Origin: a virus
Direction: 5' to 3' (one strand)
DNA length: 37,258 nucleotides
Virus record (IMG/VR): IMGVR_UViG_3300024054_000541
Location: 1 to 37,258 of that record
Under the pieces are notes generated by a model. The model was not told the origin of the DNA. It saw only the letters and a program-made list of their open reading frames with translations, and made no database searches. The position numbers and the translations under genes are program-made. This document shows positions 27,544-36,094 of the stretch, one piece after another. Position 1 is the first letter of the stretch, and every line of letters starts with the position of its first letter.

Positions 27544-28800
27544 TTATAGATTCGTCACCAACTGCTCCGTCACCTTCAGCTCGCCCGTGACGTGGGCCTC
27601 GATCATCGCCCGCGCCGCGAAGTTGTTCACCATCAGCGGGTAGGCATGCGATATCCGTCTGTTCTTCCTGTCCGTGGACGTAAGCCGTGACGTGAGCGCC
27701 GTTACCGCCTCCGGCGCAAAAACGTCCTCCAGCTTAGCCCCCACGCGCCGGAACTTGTGCGCCAGATACGCAGCCATATCGCCGCCGGAGAGAGCGCCTA
27801 TATCGGCCACCTGCGCCCGGCGTATCACCTCGCGCATATCCACGTGCACCTGCTCGTTGAACATCTGCCGCAGCTCGATCTGCCCGATCAAGACGATTCC
27901 GAGCAGCTTGCGGTAGCCATCCTCAAGCTCGTTGAACCGCTTCAGAAACTTGAACGTGCTCGCGTGCAGGTCGTGCGCCTCCTCGATCATCAGCACGCAC
28001 CGGTAGTTCTGTTTCGATCGCTCAAGCAGCAACTGCCGCACCTGCCTGGTCTTCTGCTCCAGCCTCGACGTCGGCGTCTGCGAGCTGATGTCCAGCACAA
28101 TAGAGTCGCATATGTACGAGGCGCTGAGCCGCGCCTTGTCGATGATCTGCGGGAATATGACCAGCACGTCGCCGTCGCGCCGGAGCTGTTCCACCACCCG
28201 CTTGCGGATGACCGACTTGCCCGCGCCCACCTCGCCGATCACCGCCAGAAACCCGCCGTGTCTCGCCGCGTCCAGCATCGCGGCCTCGATGTAGCGGTGA
28301 TCCTCTCCCATGAACACGTCCGTGTCTTTCTGGATGTCGTCGATGAACGGATTTCTGAACAGCCTGAATTTTTTAAGAACATCTTCCGGAATCATTTCAA
28401 CCTCCCAATCGATAGTTATTGCCTCATGATCACCCGGCATGTCCGCCGGAACTTGCCGAGGCGTGTTGGATGCCCTTTTGGCCGCGGACTGCCGCAATCC
28501 CTGTCCTCGCGGCGGCTGCCCGCGCATCGCGGAGCCGAGAGGACGCCAGATGTCCACGGCGTCCAGTCCCCGCGCCAGCAGCCAGTTGACAGCGCCGGGG
28601 TGCACGGCAATGAATTGTTCAACCGTTTCCCTGAAACCGGCCTTCGTCATTGGAATGTAGCCCCGGTTTATCAGCAGATTCACTGCCGGGCGCGATATCC
28701 CCAGCTCCGCCGCCAGTTGGCCCTGCGGGATGTCACAGTCGTGCATCAGCCGCTTGAGCAGCAGAGGCTCGAAATCCAGTTTGTACGCTTCGGCCTGCAT
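27544..28800 (-). CDS. B: Transposition target-selection ATPase, MuB-like
   Basis: The 418-residue AAA+ ATPase activates the transposase and brings target DNA. An N-terminal helix-turn-helix (about 24-46, CDIPQGQLAAELGISRPAV) is followed by a Pro/Arg-rich linker (90-125). The AAA+ core carries Walker A GEVGAGKS at 189-196 and Walker B CVLMIEEAH at 268-276. C-terminal helices include SHAYPLMVNNFAARAMIEA. The layout matches MuB and the related TnsC/ExeA group. ATG 28800 has GGAGG 6 bases upstream. In Mu, B follows A directly; here two ORF6N cassettes separate them. Confidence 0.93.
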   Translation of the reverse strand: MQAEAYKLDFEPLLLKRLMHDCDIPQGQLAAELGISRPAVNLLINRGYIPMTKAGFRETVEQFIAVHPGAVNWLLARGLDAVDIWRPLGSAMRGQPPRGQGLRQSAAKRASNTPRQVPADMPGDHEAITIDWEVEMIPEDVLKKFRLFRNPFIDDIQKDTDVFMGEDHRYIEAAMLDAARHGGFLAVIGEVGAGKSVIRKRVVEQLRRDGDVLVIFPQIIDKARLSASYICDSIVLDISSQTPTSRLEQKTRQVRQLLLERSKQNYRCVLMIEEAHDLHASTFKFLKRFNELEDGYRKLLGIVLIGQIELRQMFNEQVHVDMREVIRRAQVADIGALSGGDMAAYLAHKFRRVGAKLEDVFAPEAVTALTSRLTSTDRKNRRISHAYPLMVNNFAARAMIEAHVTGELKVTEQLVTNL

Positions 28801-28892
28801 GGTTAACCTCCGAGTTATATTTGCTCCGGCTGCTCATCAGTGCCGGGCCGCCACGCACCGGCAGACCGGCCCCCGAAGGGGCTCGGTTTCGC
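28801..28892 (-). terminator. Hairpins between the first ORF6N gene and B
   Basis: Immediately after the ORF6N stop, bases 28887-28865 fold into a strong stem with GCCCC-TTC-GGGGGC core. A second dyad TGCCGG...CCGGCA (about 28861-28839) follows. There is no T-run, so this may be a partial terminator, a processing site or a remnant of a third leader. Confidence 0.4.
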
Positions 28893-29453
28893 TTACTGGA
28901 AAAGGGACACCTGCTCTGCTTTCGCGGCCCTTGTTTCCGCCGTAAACTTCCTGACCGTGCTTTCCGAGCGGCCATGCTTCAAGGCGGTCGCCTTCGTGCC
29001 GAGTTCCAGGACATCGGCGTTGAACGCCTCGACTTCCTCGGCGGTCAACGGCTTCGGCGGTTGCTTCTTGTTGAAGTAGACCTTCACCATGTCGCGGTGA
29101 ATTGCCCATGCCTTGTCATCGGTTAAAGACTTCACAAGCATCAGATAGCCAGTCTCAGTCAGGAAGATCATCGGCACCCTGGAACCACCTTTTGACGGGA
29201 CGAAATTCGTCCCGTCATTCGCCTTTGACTCTACGAATTTCGTAGAGTCAAAGAGCTGGCTGTACTCCTCGTAGGGCACCTCAAAGAAATCCTCTTCCTT
29301 GACGAAATGCTTGCGGTTCTTGTAGAAGTTTCTGGCGGCGGTGTTCCTTGGTCTGCCGTGGAATTCGTCCACTTGCCGCAAGGTCACAACGGGCCGCTTG
29401 CGGTAAAACATCGGGGTCACTTTTCTATCTTCGATTTTGACAAGACTTCCCAT
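28893..29453 (-). CDS. ORF6N-domain antirepressor-like protein 1
   Basis: This is a 186-residue protein. The ORF6N domain covers about residues 10-120 (VVTLRQVDEFHGRPRNTAARNF, NRKHFVKEEDFFEV, PMIFLTETGYLMLVKSLTDDKAWAIHR). This domain is found in phage antirepressors that neutralise CI-type repressors. A C-terminal 50 residues (EVEAFNADVLELGTKATALKHG) with helix-turn-helix character is shared, at DNA level identical for 120 bp, with the second copy. ATG 29453 has GGAGG 7 bases upstream and follows the 69-aa gene. A 31-bp palindrome and a 23-bp palindrome encode the region between domain parts. Confidence 0.85.
   Translation of the reverse strand: MGSLVKIEDRKVTPMFYRKRPVVTLRQVDEFHGRPRNTAARNFYKNRKHFVKEEDFFEVPYEEYSQLFDSTKFVESKANDGTNFVPSKGGSRVPMIFLTETGYLMLVKSLTDDKAWAIHRDMVKVYFNKKQPPKPLTAEEVEAFNADVLELGTKATALKHGRSESTVRKFTAETRAAKAEQVSLFQ
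28908..29027. repeat. 120-bp duplication, copy 1 (ORF6N C-terminal end)
   Basis: These bases are identical to 29914-30033 over 120 bp, while the central parts of the two ORF6N genes differ. A second identical block of 44 bp (29443-29486 and 30425-30468) covers the junction of the 69-aa gene and the ORF6N start. The genes are therefore mosaics of constant ends and variable centres. Confidence 0.95.
29194..29253. repeat. Two perfect palindromes inside ORF6N gene 1
   Basis: 29194-29216 is a 23-bp palindrome (11-bp arms, centre a at 29205). 29223-29253 is a 31-bp palindrome with 15-bp arms (ctttgactctacgaa and complement). Both are read in frame, coding for GTNFVPS and DSTKFVES-type peptides. 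Confidence 0.92.
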
Positions 29454-29455
29454 GA

Positions 29456-29665
29456 TTACACCTCCATTGATGTGTTTAGTACGGCTGTACAGGCTTCTTC
29501 CGCTTCGCGGAGAATCCAGTACAAACCGGTAATAGCCGGGCCGGAAATATCGGTTGCCCTGGTGTCAGGAACTTTACAGAGTAAATCGGTGAGCAGCGCG
29601 AGTTTGTAACGGGTGATGTTAAGGGCGTCTTCTTGGTGGGTATCGCACTTGGGGCAGGTACACAT
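29456..29665 (-). CDS. Small CxxCxxH protein 1 of the leader-ORF6N cassette
   Basis: The 69-residue product starts at ATG 29665 (MCTCPKCDTHQEDALNIT), which lies 9 bases from GGAG; the ATG at 29671 is too close. The N-terminal CPKCDTH forms a CxxCxxH metal-type motif, and the rest is helical and ends ACTAVLNTSMEV, identical to the last residues of the second copy. It occupies the position of icd/orfX in the P1 immI operon, between the leader RNA and the antirepressor. The ribosome site is the complementary target of the upstream leader, so its translation is probably blocked in the lysogen. The exact function is unknown. Confidence 0.75.
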   Translation of the reverse strand: MCTCPKCDTHQEDALNITRYKLALLTDLLCKVPDTRATDISGPAITGLYWILREAEEACTAVLNTSMEV

Positions 29666-29668
29666 AAG

Positions 29669-29841
29669 CATTGTCTCCTGTTCAAGGGATTCGGCAAAGT
29701 GCCGGGATGTTGAACACAGCGACAATGAGCTGCCGTGGGTATTCGCAATATTCCCCACGCATCCCGGCACCCTTTCCCATGCCGGAGACAAAAATATACC
29801 GCTTCTGACGGGTGCGGTAGCCGCATTGTCACCTGTGTTCA
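29669..29841 (-). ncRNA. c4-like antisense leader RNA, module 1
   Basis: The core domain is an 11-bp outer stem (29770-29760 with 29709-29699) enclosing a 6-bp hairpin (29759-29754 with 29739-29734) and a single-stranded segment CATTGTCGCTGTGTTCA (29727-29711). That segment is complementary (7 and 6 bp) to the ribosome site TGAACAGGAGACAATG of the downstream gene (29684-29669). It is also complementary (7 and 9 bp) to a segment upstream (29841-29824). The layout is that of the P1/P7 c4 antisense RNA. A TTGACA (29883-29878) precedes it, but its -10 is poor. Confidence 0.72.
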
Positions 29842-29907
29842 GCAGGTGCAAACACGGTACGCCTGAATCGGCTATTTTGTCAAATGATTTCTGCATTGTT
29901 CTTGTCC

Positions 29908-30435
29908 TTATGCCACCTGCTCTGCTTTCGCGGCCCTTGTTTCCGCCGTAAACTTCCTGACCGTGCTTTCCGAGCGGCCATGCTTCAAGGCGGTCGCCTT
30001 CGTGCCGAGTTCCAGGACATCGGCGTTGAACGCTTCGACTTCCTCAAGTGACGGCTTCTTGTAGCCTTGGCGCTTGGCGAAGTAGGCGTACACCAAGGCC
30101 CGATGAATTGCCCATGCCTTGTCATCGGTCAGGCTCTTCACCAGCATCATGTAACCGGTCAGAGTCAGCAAAATCATGCTGCCTCTATGACCGCCTTTCG
30201 TCGGCTTTGGTGGGACGAAATTCGTCCCACCAAAGAGTTCATTCCACTCCTCGAAAGTCGCCTCAAAGTAATCTTGACCTTCGACAAAATGCTTCCGGTT
30301 TATCCGGAAATTTCTCTTTGCCGTACCGCGCGGCCTGCCGTGGAAATCATCCACTTGCGGCAAGGTCAAAACGGCCCGCTTGTGAAAAAACCTTGCCTGT
30401 ATTTTTCTGCCTTCGACTTTGACCAGACTTCCCAT
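29908..30435 (-). CDS. ORF6N-domain antirepressor-like protein 2
   Basis: This 175-residue paralogue of the 28893-29453 protein has an N-terminal ORF6N domain (LTLPQVDDFHGRPRGTAKRNFRI, VEGQDYFEATFEEW, MILLTLTGYMMLVKSLTDDKAWAIHR) and the same constant C-terminus. Variation is concentrated in the middle. In this copy the palindrome encodes FGGTNFVPPK. ATG 30435 has GGAGG 7 bases upstream and lies 2 bases after the 69-aa gene. An antirepressor role against CI repressors is inferred from the family and the presence of a leader like that of ant in P1. Confidence 0.85.
   Translation of the reverse strand: MGSLVKVEGRKIQARFFHKRAVLTLPQVDDFHGRPRGTAKRNFRINRKHFVEGQDYFEATFEEWNELFGGTNFVPPKPTKGGHRGSMILLTLTGYMMLVKSLTDDKAWAIHRALVYAYFAKRQGYKKPSLEEVEAFNADVLELGTKATALKHGRSESTVRKFTAETRAAKAEQVA
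30205..30235. repeat. 31-bp perfect palindrome inside ORF6N gene 2
   Basis: It has 15-bp arms (ctttggtgggacgaa and complement) around one base. It sits at the position equivalent to 29223-29253 in copy 1. The ends CTTTG and centre ACGAA/TTCGT are the same, and the five bases between differ in both arms in a compensatory way. Confidence 0.92.
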
Positions 30436-30437
30436 GA

Positions 30438-30647
30438 TTACACCTCCATTGATGTGTTTAGTACGGCTTCTGTGATATCTCTGGCCTCTCTGAGGAACCA
30501 GAAAAGGCCGGTCAGTGCTTTGTCGTCAAGCGAGAATGCAGGATCGTTAGATGCGTGGCAAACGAGGGTGGCGATAAGGGAAAGCTGGGAGGTTACGGCG
30601 TGGAGGGCGTCATGCGGGTGATCCCCGCACTTGATGCAGTAATTCAT
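30438..30647 (-). CDS. Small CxxCxxH protein 2 of the leader-ORF6N cassette
   Basis: This 69-residue paralogue begins MNYCIKCGDHPHDALHAVT with the same CxxCxxH motif (CIKCGDH). It aligns with copy 1 along its length (LTGLFWFLREARDITEAVLN against ITGLYWILREAEEACTAVLN). ATG 30647 has AGGAG with good spacing. Its ribosome site is complementary to the upstream leader. The equal length (69 residues each) and shared ends show a duplicated cassette. Function unknown; by position comparable to icd/orfX of P1. Confidence 0.75.
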   Translation of the reverse strand: MNYCIKCGDHPHDALHAVTSQLSLIATLVCHASNDPAFSLDDKALTGLFWFLREARDITEAVLNTSMEV

Positions 30648-30653
30648 GGTGGG

Positions 30654-30838
30654 CTCCTGTACTTTTCCAAGATGGCACTTTCCAAGGTGCCGGGTGGTTG
30701 GAAACCGTGTACAGGTACGGCACAGGGATTTCCCCCGAAGGGTATTGTATAGCCCTGTCCACCCGACAGCTCCTTTCAGACTGTGGGCGCAAAAATGCCG
30801 CAAATCGTTGCGGTGCCGCCTGTACACTCGTGGTTTCC
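30654..30838 (-). ncRNA. c4-like antisense leader RNA, module 2
   Basis: It has the same layout as module 1 with different sequence. The outer stem pairs 30768-30759 with 30697-30688, and the inner hairpin pairs 30758-30753 with 30727-30722. The single strand CCTGTACACGGTTTCC (30715-30700) is complementary (7 and 5 bp) to the ribosome site GGAAAAGTACAGGAG (30668-30654). It is also complementary (9 and 7 bp) to an upstream segment at 30838-30819. A 6-bp hairpin followed by ATTTTTG lies between. Compensatory differences from module 1 support the fold. Confidence 0.75.
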
Positions 30839-30854
30839 ACGCCACTTGTCCACG

Positions 30855-30883
30855 AGTATCAGCGGAACCGGTTATTTTGTCAA
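30855..30883 (-). promoter_or_regulatory. Promoter of leader module 2
   Basis: A perfect -35 TTGACA (30883-30878) and -10 GATACT (30860-30855) with 17-bp spacing read toward the leader. The same TTGACAAAATA.CCG.TTC block precedes module 1 (29883), where the -10 is weak. It lies just after the transposase stop, so the cassettes can be transcribed independently of the early operon. Confidence 0.7.
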
Positions 30884-30901
30884 GAGATTTCTGCATGGTT
30901 G

Positions 30902-32707
30902 CTATCCTTGTGCCGCCTGCGAAGGTTCGCAAATATAACAACACGCGGCAGCGGGCGATGAACCCGCTGCCAGCAGCTCTTCGGCCTCCGCCTCGTCTAT
31001 CGAATCGCCATATTGCGCCCTGATCCGCGCGTTCGTCTCCGTCGATACCGGCCCTGTAGCGGCTGCCAGCCGCCGGAAAAACTCCGTGACCGGAATCCGG
31101 CGGGAGATTCGCTGCGCGCGCGGGGCATATGCCGCCGCGTCCACCACCAGAACCGGGTTTTCCACCGGCGCGGACGGCTTTATCTCCAGCTCCACGCCCC
31201 GCTTGTCCATATACGCCAGATTTCCGGCCTTCTCCGCCTGATGCCCGAACACCTTCAACGGCGATTCGTGCCCCACCGGCGGCGCCTCGGCACGGCGCTT
31301 CTCCCTGGTCCCGTGCCACTTCACCCCCCACTCGTCCGCGCTGACCTTCTCCATCTCCACCATCGCCTTCTGCGTGTCCGTGTGGCCGGGCGATCTGTAT
31401 TCGCCGTAGTACGCGCCCGCGTCAAGGCGTCCGTAGTCGTCCATGGGTACAGGCTCCAGCAGCCAGACCATGCCGTTGAAACACACCTCTGCCTTCGGCC
31501 ATTCATACGGATTCATCACCACCTTCACCTTCTGCCCGGCGGCGTTGGGGTCGGGTATCTGGTAGTGGTTGCCGCATAACCGTACGATCCGAGCACCGTT
31601 GGCCGTGCGCTCCCGTTCCGGCTCGCGTATCAGGGCGCAATATATATCCCAGCCCGGGCAAAGGCGTAGTTCATGGGCCTGTATCCGCTGCCAGAGATCG
31701 GCGCGGGGCGCTATGTTACGCATCTTCTTGGTGGTGTTCACCATAACCGACCAGTCCAGCGCCCACCGGTTCAGTTCATCAAGCGAGCCGGGCCGCCGGA
31801 ACCGCAGGCGGCCCTCGAACCGGTTGATGTAGTGCATCATCCCCTCTACCGCGCCCTTGGCGCGCGGGTTGCCCGGCAGATGCGGCTTCAGTTCCACGCG
31901 CAGGCATTCCAGCAGCGCCTGGTTGCGACGCGCCCTCGTTATCGAGCCGCGATCGGCCACGAGGACGAACGGCACGCCGTGCATCCGCCATGCGGCGGCC
32001 TCGGGGCGATCCTCGCCGAAAAACTTTTTAAACGCTTCTTCCTTGGGTCGGAACGCCTCGAACAGGAACTCCGATCCGTCCTCCGCCCGCTCGCCCTCGG
32101 CATAGAAATAACGGAAGTAGAACGCTCCGGAGCAGTGATCCACAGCCACGTACCTCAACAGTTCGCGTTTGATCTCTCTCGCGGTTTTCACGATCTTGTT
32201 CCTGTAGAGAGTCATATCGGCGTCGCGCTCTCTCAAGCCACTGCCGCCGTCGTCCAGAAAATACTGGATGCAGTTGGTCACGTCGAACTGCCAGACGTGA
32301 TTAGGATGCCTTGACCGCATGGGCGTATGCGGCGCGGGACGGTTTAAATCCCTGGCGGACACATGGTGATCCCGTAGCAACTGACGGTAGCGGGAGCTGG
32401 ACACGTCAACAGCCATGCCCGAATCCGCCAGTATCTCCTGCGCGTCGCAGGCCGGAATAGGGATATCCGTGCTTGCCCGCCGGCTGGCGTGCATCAGCGC
32501 GCCGCCCTTTATTACTATTTCCCGCGCCACGGCGGAGCTGCCCTTGTCCGAGCGCTCGGCACGGCGGCGGATACCGCTCCACCTGTGTATGGTGGCCACC
32601 GACACGCCGTAATGCAGGGCCAGACGTCGGGCCTCATCCGAAGCCTCGCCGCCGGAGAGATACCTGAGCGCATCGCACACGTTGGCCCTTACCAGCTCCG
32701 AAGGCAT
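30902..32707 (-). CDS. A: Phage transposase, MuA-like (DDE)
   Basis: This 601-residue protein joins phage ends to target DNA. The N-terminal part has an HTH segment (ALHYGVSVATIHRWSGIRRR). The catalytic triad is Asp142 (WQFDVTN), Asp252 (LVADRG) and Glu288 (AKGAVEGMMHYINRF), with exactly 35 residues between the second Asp and the Glu, as in retroviral-type integrases. A beta-barrel-like region follows (VRLCGNHYQIPDP), then the helical C-terminus that should contact B. It is intact and of usual length. The gene ends just before the promoter of leader module 2. Confidence 0.95.
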   Translation of the reverse strand: MPSELVRANVCDALRYLSGGEASDEARRLALHYGVSVATIHRWSGIRRRAERSDKGSSAVAREIVIKGGALMHASRRASTDIPIPACDAQEILADSGMAVDVSSSRYRQLLRDHHVSARDLNRPAPHTPMRSRHPNHVWQFDVTNCIQYFLDDGGSGLRERDADMTLYRNKIVKTAREIKRELLRYVAVDHCSGAFYFRYFYAEGERAEDGSEFLFEAFRPKEEAFKKFFGEDRPEAAAWRMHGVPFVLVADRGSITRARRNQALLECLRVELKPHLPGNPRAKGAVEGMMHYINRFEGRLRFRRPGSLDELNRWALDWSVMVNTTKKMRNIAPRADLWQRIQAHELRLCPGWDIYCALIREPERERTANGARIVRLCGNHYQIPDPNAAGQKVKVVMNPYEWPKAEVCFNGMVWLLEPVPMDDYGRLDAGAYYGEYRSPGHTDTQKAMVEMEKVSADEWGVKWHGTREKRRAEAPPVGHESPLKVFGHQAEKAGNLAYMDKRGVELEIKPSAPVENPVLVVDAAAYAPRAQRISRRIPVTEFFRRLAAATGPVSTETNARIRAQYGDSIDEAEAEELLAAGSSPAAACCYICEPSQAAQG

Positions 32708-35601: not shown

Positions 35602-35618
35602 TAAAATATTTCAAATGA
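35582..35618 (+). promoter_or_regulatory. Repressor promoter -10 and candidate operator
   Basis: A perfect TATAAT (35582-35587) reads toward the repressor, with transcription expected to start near 35594. An inverted repeat TCATTTG / CAAATGA (35591-35597 and 35612-35618) covers the -35 of the early promoter and the repressor start codon. TTTCA also recurs at 35533, 35588 and 35609. These are candidate operator elements. Confidence 0.55.
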
Positions 35619-36094
35619 CTCACTTCTCCGAAATTATGGATCGAATCCGTTCCCGGACGGGTTTGGAGAGCGACTCCGATCTCGCTAGTTGCTTGGGGTT
35701 AAACCGTGCTGCGTTCTCTGAACGTAAAAGAAGGCTCAGCATCCCATACCCGGAGCTGGTCGCATTATCTGACCGCGAAGCGTGGTCGCTAGACTGGCTG
35801 TTAACCGGCAAGGAACCCCTCACTCAAGCTTCGATGTTTCAATCAGCCTCCCCGGAGCCGAGAGAGCACGGCAACGGCATCCGCATGTCCGACATGCTCA
35901 CCAAAACCGCCGAGATCCTCGAATCCGAGACCATCTACCGGACGGCGCTGGCGTCGAACATTAACGCCTTCCATCAGGCTCTGGGCGCCGAAAGAAAAAA
36001 TGTCGATCTACAGGATCGCGTGACTCAACTGGAAGAGCGCTTACGGATTCTTGAGGCGCAACTATTGGGGAAGCTGGAGATGAAAGTGGCTTAG
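35615..36094 (+). CDS. CI-type phage repressor
   Basis: The 159-residue protein is the only plus-strand phage gene. It has an N-terminal CI-type HTH (IMDRIRSRTGLESDSDLASCLGLNRAAFSERKRR) and SLDWLLTGKEPL, typical of the phage CI repressor family, followed by a linker and a C-terminal coiled coil (RVTQLEERLRILEAQLLGKLE) likely for oligomerisation. There is no peptidase domain, so it is not inactivated by RecA-mediated self-cleavage. This fits control through antirepressors. It is lower in GC than the late genes. It should hold Pe off in the lysogen. Confidence 0.88.
   Translation: MTHFSEIMDRIRSRTGLESDSDLASCLGLNRAAFSERKRRLSIPYPELVALSDREAWSLDWLLTGKEPLTQASMFQSASPEPREHGNGIRMSDMLTKTAEILESETIYRTALASNINAFHQALGAERKNVDLQDRVTQLEERLRILEAQLLGKLEMKVA

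Follow-up and report, generated by a model that had tools for sequence, protein, structure and literature searches.

In phage P1, the annotated order of the antirepressor operon is a1/b1, C4, a2/b2, icd and ant1, with icd encoding a cell-division inhibitor. The antisense C4 RNA of P1-type systems is released by RNase P processing as a molecule of about 77 nucleotides (nt). Other small RNAs (sRNAs) resemble this system in part. In Acinetobacter baumannii, the C4-like Group 1 sRNAs comprise many C4-type RNAs with variable a' sequences in one genome, and C4-like RNAs are processed in this genus (PMC5320573). The Xanthomonas integron RNA sRNA-Xcc1 (Rfam family RF02221) lies upstream of symE (PMC12444791, PMC2996969) and was identified by Northern blot and end mapping as a discrete RNA of 88 nt (PMC2996969). 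In Xanthomonas, Xylella and Aeromonas, a role of RF02221 in regulating virulence has been discussed (PMC12444791, PMC12189769, PMC8780938). The window considered here is the whole 37,258-base virus record IMGVR_UViG_3300024054_000541 of IMG/VR, and all coordinates refer to it. Based on its sequence, it is likely, with a probability of about 0.8, that this virus carries two tandem C4-type cassettes guarding ORF6N antirepressor operons, both on the minus strand.

Each cassette is built of a TTGACA element, a structured RNA, a gene for a protein of 69 amino acids and an ORF6N gene. A preliminary description of this DNA had already proposed two such cassettes with equal spacing, and the spacing from TTGACA to the RNA is indeed 114 nt in cassette 1 and 113 nt in cassette 2. 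In cassette 1, the -35-like TTGACA (30878..30883) aligns with the -35 sequence TTGACC of the P1 promoter Pc4 and with the leaders of L003 and L270, two loci with homologous cassettes. A terminator-like hairpin with a T run, read from sequence, lies between the a1b1 sites and the RNA (30791..30813). RNA 1 (30681..30767) is followed by small gene 1 (30438..30647), which stands in the position of icd and has a homologue in L270, and by the gene for ORF6N protein 1 (29908..30435; 175 amino acids), a predicted antirepressor matching PF10543 (5.5e-12) and PHROG 4608 (about 4e-28). Cassette 2 repeats this order with TTGACA at 29878..29883, a terminator-like hairpin and T run read from sequence (29790..29818), RNA 2 (29693..29768), small gene 2 (29456..29665; 69 amino acids) and the gene for ORF6N protein 2 (28893..29453; 186 amino acids; PF10543 3.1e-14; PHROG 4608, anti-repressor, about 3e-28). 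The hairpin has an equivalent position in the leaders of P1, L003, L270 and a third homologous locus, L271. In both cassettes only 2 nt separate the small gene from the ORF6N gene (30438/30435 and 29456/29453). The small proteins had been described by a CxxCxxH motif, which is present in both proteins of the window; as a defining trait of the family it was rejected, since the homologues in L270 and L271 lack it.

RNA 1 belongs to RF02221, scoring 59.1 bits against a gathering threshold of 53 (E=2.6e-8 for the whole window). RNA 2 is like RF02221 in its fold and paired sites and is not filed as a member. A covariance model made from viral RNAs, with the window left out, finds both RNAs, RNA 2 with E=0.019 in 309 kb (R1). 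The two fold alike, with a closing stem, two hairpins, an 8-nt loop on hairpin 2 and an unpaired linker behind it, and RNA 2 folds far better than its shuffles (z=-4.4).

The hairpin 2 loop and the linker, as identified from sequence and fold, both have complements at the start of the operon downstream. In RNA 1, the loop b' (CCUGUAC, 30709..30715) complements GUACAGG at the Shine-Dalgarno sequence of small gene 1, where the b2 site GTACAGG (30656..30662) overlaps it. In RNA 2, the loop b' (CAUUGUC, 29721..29727) complements GACAAUG, and here b2 (GACAATG, 29669..29675) lies between the Shine-Dalgarno sequence and the start codon of small gene 2. The linkers a' (UUUCCAA, 30698..30704; UGUUCAA, 29710..29716) find their complements just upstream of b2, over 7 nt in both cassettes. 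These a2 sites are TTGGAAA (30664..30670, with a second copy at 30685-30679) and TTGAACA (29679..29685). Moreover, the target pairs occur again upstream of each RNA. The b1 sites GTACAGG (30819..30825) and GACAATG (29824..29830) are exact copies of b2, and the a1-like sites GTGGAAA (30834..30840) and CTGAACA (29836..29842) each have one mismatch to a2. Each loop of the window fits only the target of its own cassette, and in a six-by-six table of the two window RNAs, L003, L270, L271 and P1 the cognate Shine-Dalgarno region is the best match everywhere (7-8 nt versus 2-6 nt).

Across RF02221 loci as a whole, loops and Shine-Dalgarno sequences change together. A set of 120 viral stretches with an RF02221 core was collected by hairpin 1 only, so that loop and Shine-Dalgarno sequence are unbiased in it. 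For 82 distinct viral pairs, with 74 distinct loops among them, the longest perfect match between the two averages 6.46 nt with the cognate sequence and 3.81 nt after swapping, and matches of at least 6 nt occur in 77% versus 5.7%. A second set of 26 loci, made up of covariance-model finds in gammaproteobacterial genomes and the RNA of the L270 genome, gives 6.0 versus 4.2 nt. Neither real mean was reached in 20,000 permutations (0/20,000 for each set), a result that is not a strict probability because the sequences are related. The covariation would also be expected if the element were a purely cis-acting riboregulator, in which no RNA is set free and the loop pairs with the Shine-Dalgarno sequence of its own molecule, given that RNA and target lie only 24-33 nt apart on one transcript. 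Such a device would hardly account for the duplication of the target upstream of the RNA, as in P1, and both sRNA-Xcc1 (PMC2996969) and the C4-like RNAs of Acinetobacter (PMC5320573) exist as separate, processed or discrete molecules; a strictly cis-acting element is thus improbable.

Because the loop fits its own Shine-Dalgarno sequence in both the viral and the bacterial set, RF02221 looks like a C4-type self-targeting antisense class. No statement of this rule was found in the literature searched, to which older subscription papers do not belong, and priority is unproven. The cassettes of the window are not unique in their duplication, an arrangement of which the preliminary description knew no earlier account. 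Other phages with two or three RF02221 cassettes (L074, L049, L023/L044) have loops that fit their own targets only. Since the loops of multi-cassette phages are mostly mutually non-matching, the stacked orthogonal design appears to be general, with one exception: the phage of contig 2844977580 (L041/L089) carries two cassettes with an identical palindromic loop, CCUAGGA. The further proposal, that a P1-like operon of RNA, small gene and antirepressor occurs twice in the window with different RNA specificities, is well supported by the paired sites, the two permutation tests, the diagonal of the cross-table with P1, and the related cassette of L271 with its recognisable C4 and c4-a1b1.

Several observations weigh against C4-type cassettes. 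The leaders had been taken for C4 RNAs, and this assignment failed: the Rfam C4 model (RF01695), run on both leaders, gives no match up to E=10 in 28700-31000, RNA 1 being RF02221 instead. The c4-a1b1 model (RF03163) has no match in the window, and the RF02221 model does not match the C4 RNA of P1. The score of RNA 2 against RF02221, 28.1 bits, is below the gathering threshold, with an E-value of 0.038 that already spans 4227 families, and RNA 1 has an unremarkable folding energy (z=-1.4). In the window alone, the chance of each single match is 0.001-0.06, and a good match between loop and Shine-Dalgarno sequence is absent for 9 of the 26 RNAs of the second set. Finally, the -10 elements are weak, and the small proteins belong to no Pfam or PHROG family and have no phage match.

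The genes downstream of RF02221 RNAs in viruses are mainly of antirepressor families. Among 70 genes standing first behind the RNA, 15 have AntA, 11 KilA-N, 10 Bro-N, 9 P22_AR_N and 7 pRha. In three bacterial loci the gene downstream encodes a SymE toxin, with loop matches of 8 nt (L284, L307) or 6 nt (L282), in agreement with the reported integron cassette of sRNA-Xcc1 and symE (PMC12444791). The complementarity at the start region of symE in these three loci would allow sRNA-Xcc1 to be an antitoxin RNA there. These loci, and the placement of the small gene where P1 has icd, a cell-division inhibitor, would suit an addiction or host-takeover module, with the RNA as a type I-like antitoxin and with the small or the ORF6N protein as a toxin instead of an antirepressor. 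This explanation is quite unlikely, as the second gene of both cassettes encodes an ORF6N protein matching antirepressor PHROGs, and antirepressor families make up most viral RF02221 targets.

The window represents a Mu-like transposable phage, with genes for transposase A, ATPase B, Mor and DUF3164 all present. Transposase A (30902..32707, minus strand; PHROG 310 transposase, 1.7e-51) and ATPase B, the DNA transposition protein (27544..28800, minus strand; PHROG 296, 6e-47), flank the cassettes. That the cassettes interrupt the usual A-B pair, as first described, agrees with the comparison to relatives: A ends at 30902 and B starts at 28800, a distance of 2.1 kb occupied by the two cassettes, versus about 66-131 nt in every relative for which the two genes could both be located. 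The leaders and small genes of the two cassettes are 40-55% identical and the ORF6N genes mostly about 70%. With this divergence, the cassettes are old relatives and not an assembly duplicate. Only the last 120 nt or so of the ORF6N genes are identical (29908-30030 and 28893-29015), which suggests gene conversion. These ends are also a possible crossover site for deletion of one whole cassette.

A search of relatives, as first recommended, yielded homologous cassettes in three further loci. In the viral locus L003, the ORF6N protein is 69% identical and the cassette lies downstream of B, on a contig that also carries A and B; a RadC-like gene takes the place of the small gene between RNA and ORF6N (L003:6550-6998). 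In L270, a metagenome-assembled genome (MAG) of Deltaproteobacteria, a small gene and an ORF6N gene form a cassette directly after a Mor gene. L271, also a Deltaproteobacteria MAG, has what we read as a B-like ATPase and a Gam-like gene nearby. Its leader matches c4-a1b1 (RF03163) above the gathering threshold and C4 (RF01695) with 44.8 bits against a threshold of 45, and a small gene and an ORF6N gene stand behind it. P1-type C4 and RF02221 RNAs are thus interchangeable before homologous ORF6N genes, and this interchange is the strongest argument for a common function of the two families; the L271 match does not make the window RNAs members of RF01695. The Rfam family isrK overlaps the a1b1/terminator part of C4 leaders in P1 (L141, 48230-48311) and L271 (3071-3153), so isrK matches may mark C4-type antirepressor leaders. 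Close ORF6N relatives in IMG/VR came from only one phage, on two contigs; a DNA scan with the TTGACA leader gave, besides chance matches, only the phage of L003 (two contigs); and an ORF6N search of 395 genomes of the phylum of L270 gave only the L270 genome itself and one 45% match.

The homologous cassettes occupy different positions: that of L270 follows Mor, that of L003 lies downstream of B and that of L271 comes behind a hammerhead ribozyme. Together with the adjoining A and B genes of relatives without cassettes, these positions could also point to selfish or decayed mobile cargo with no role in phage immunity. All reading frames and paired sites are intact in both copies despite a leader divergence of about 50%, and this explanation is considered unlikely.

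The sequences themselves show the anatomy, the pairing with its covariation and orthogonality, and the intact ribozyme core. If the cassettes are C4-type switches, we infer the following RNA processing, repression, antirepressor action and cleavage in vivo. In a lysogen, each TTGACA promoter would produce the leader, from which the structured RNA with the RF02221 fold would be released. The loop b' and linker a' of this RNA would pair with two targets, a1/b1 in the leader and a2/b2 where ribosomes bind ahead of the small gene. Neither this gene nor the ORF6N gene, whose start lies 2 nt further on, would then be translated, and transcription would probably stop as well, via a terminator or Rho. 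Because the loops differ, each RNA would guard only its own operon. When repression fails, the ORF6N antirepressors would be made and would counteract a repressor. The simplest target would be the CI-type protein of 159 amino acids encoded at 35615..36094 on the plus strand, a candidate proposed from family names and the P1 precedent. This helix-turn-helix protein matches only PF07022 (1.2e-9), which agrees with the preliminary description of a repressor without a peptidase domain, and it thus has no self-cleavage domain. Antagonism of this repressor, two immunity groups and the induction of other prophages, all put forward in the preliminary description, are possible consequences.

The second cassette ends on a type II hammerhead ribozyme (28824..28894, minus strand), which starts on the TAA of ORF6N gene 2 and has a predicted cut at 28864/28863. 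It matches RF02276 with 59.3 bits (gathering threshold 37, E=5.8e-10), and its catalytic core is complete in the alignment (CUGAUGA, GAAA, GUC), with no core mismatch. This ribozyme adds to the features described earlier, as do the a1/b1 sites and the open frame of the leaders considered below. Cleavage of read-through RNA at the last ORF6N stop codon would part the B messenger RNA from the cassettes. The downstream message would be freed, and the upstream one would keep a hairpin after its stop codon. Bacterial ribozymes have been found associated with Mu-like phage genes for unexplained reasons (PMC10085705). In L271 the gene ahead of the cassette is followed, immediately after its stop codon, by a hammerhead, and in L006 one directly follows a stop codon. 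ORF16 of Pseudomonas phage MP29 (Casadabanvirus) overlaps the matching stretch with its end. For distinct phage hammerheads, considered over loci L150-L269 (120 viral loci), L277 and L006, the upstream stop codon ends at most 1 base from the ribozyme sequence GCGAAAC in 70 of 137 (TAA 42, TGA 16, TAG 12) and at -5 to +1 in 98 of 137. A start codon follows within 150 nt in 130 of 155 hammerheads of the undeduplicated set. A hammerhead at the stop codon therefore looks like a rule of operon processing. No hammerhead was found in the A-B gaps of relatives. One 57-kb viral contig carries eight type II hammerheads within 4 kb, all on the same strand (L173:2821-6747).

Both leaders also lie within an open reading frame that starts before the promoter and runs through the entire leader into the small gene, in frame 0 only. 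In cassette 1 (30438..30896, minus strand), a Shine-Dalgarno sequence and ATG (30896-30894) are placed upstream of the -35 element; in cassette 2 (29456..29896, minus strand), the ATG is at 29896-29894. The frame stays open in 4-7% of the shuffled versions of each leader, and the dinucleotide-shuffle P values are 0.055 and 0.067, respectively. In all four RF02221-ORF6N leaders (both of the window, L003 and L270), a Shine-Dalgarno sequence and ATG stand before TTGACA, this frame is open, the other two are closed and the length is divisible by three; the ATG of L270 overlaps the stop codon upstream of it. The product of 8.6e-6 overstates the significance because the leaders are related. As a general trait of RF02221, the open frame was rejected (13 of 78, compared with 15 and 10 in the other frames), and P1 is without it. 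It is conceivable, if rather doubtful, that the cassettes sense which promoter transcribes them. In lysogeny, RNA from the cassette promoter would lack the upstream ATG, fold and silence the operon. In lytic growth, read-through from the upstream gene would bring a Shine-Dalgarno sequence and ATG, so that translation across the antisense RNA would bypass silencing and ribosomes would reach the small gene, with the hammerhead trimming at the ORF6N stop.

For RF02221, these observations amount to a testable general rule, in which each RNA carries, in the loop of hairpin 2, the complement of its own operon's Shine-Dalgarno region. If true, this virulence-labelled family would have to be seen as C4-type RNAs that silence their own operons, with antirepressor genes of phages and SymE toxin genes as targets. 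Phages also stack several such switches whose specificities do not cross, so that seven-base loops could serve to predict superinfection immunity and prophage cross-talk. Likewise, placement at stop codons offers a concrete candidate function for the ribozymes linked to Mu-like phages (PMC10085705).

Four known systems come closest to these cassettes. The Group 1 sRNAs of Acinetobacter differ in that their proposed targets are incoming phages or host genes, with no ORF6N cassettes described (PMC5320573). RNA 1 shares with sRNA-Xcc1 its family and its placement upstream of its gene. In contrast, sRNA-Xcc1 was published as trans-acting and virulence-linked, while the loop of the window RNA targets the Shine-Dalgarno sequence of its own downstream operon. 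The ribozyme has the full consensus core of the type II hammerheads of bacteria and phages (RF02276; PMC3088659); here it abuts the stop codon ending an RNA-controlled antirepressor cassette. The c4-icd-ant operon of P1/P7 has its parts in the same order and at similar spacing: a promoter, a1/b1 sites, a terminator-like hairpin, an RNA bearing the b' loop and the a' linker, a2/b2 sites at the Shine-Dalgarno sequence, a small gene and an antirepressor gene. Despite this shared arrangement, the window RNA is of another Rfam family than RF01695 or RF03163 and is present in two copies with different loops, and the operons carry ORF6N in place of Ant1/2, reside in a transposable phage, and possess an open leader frame and a 3' hammerhead.

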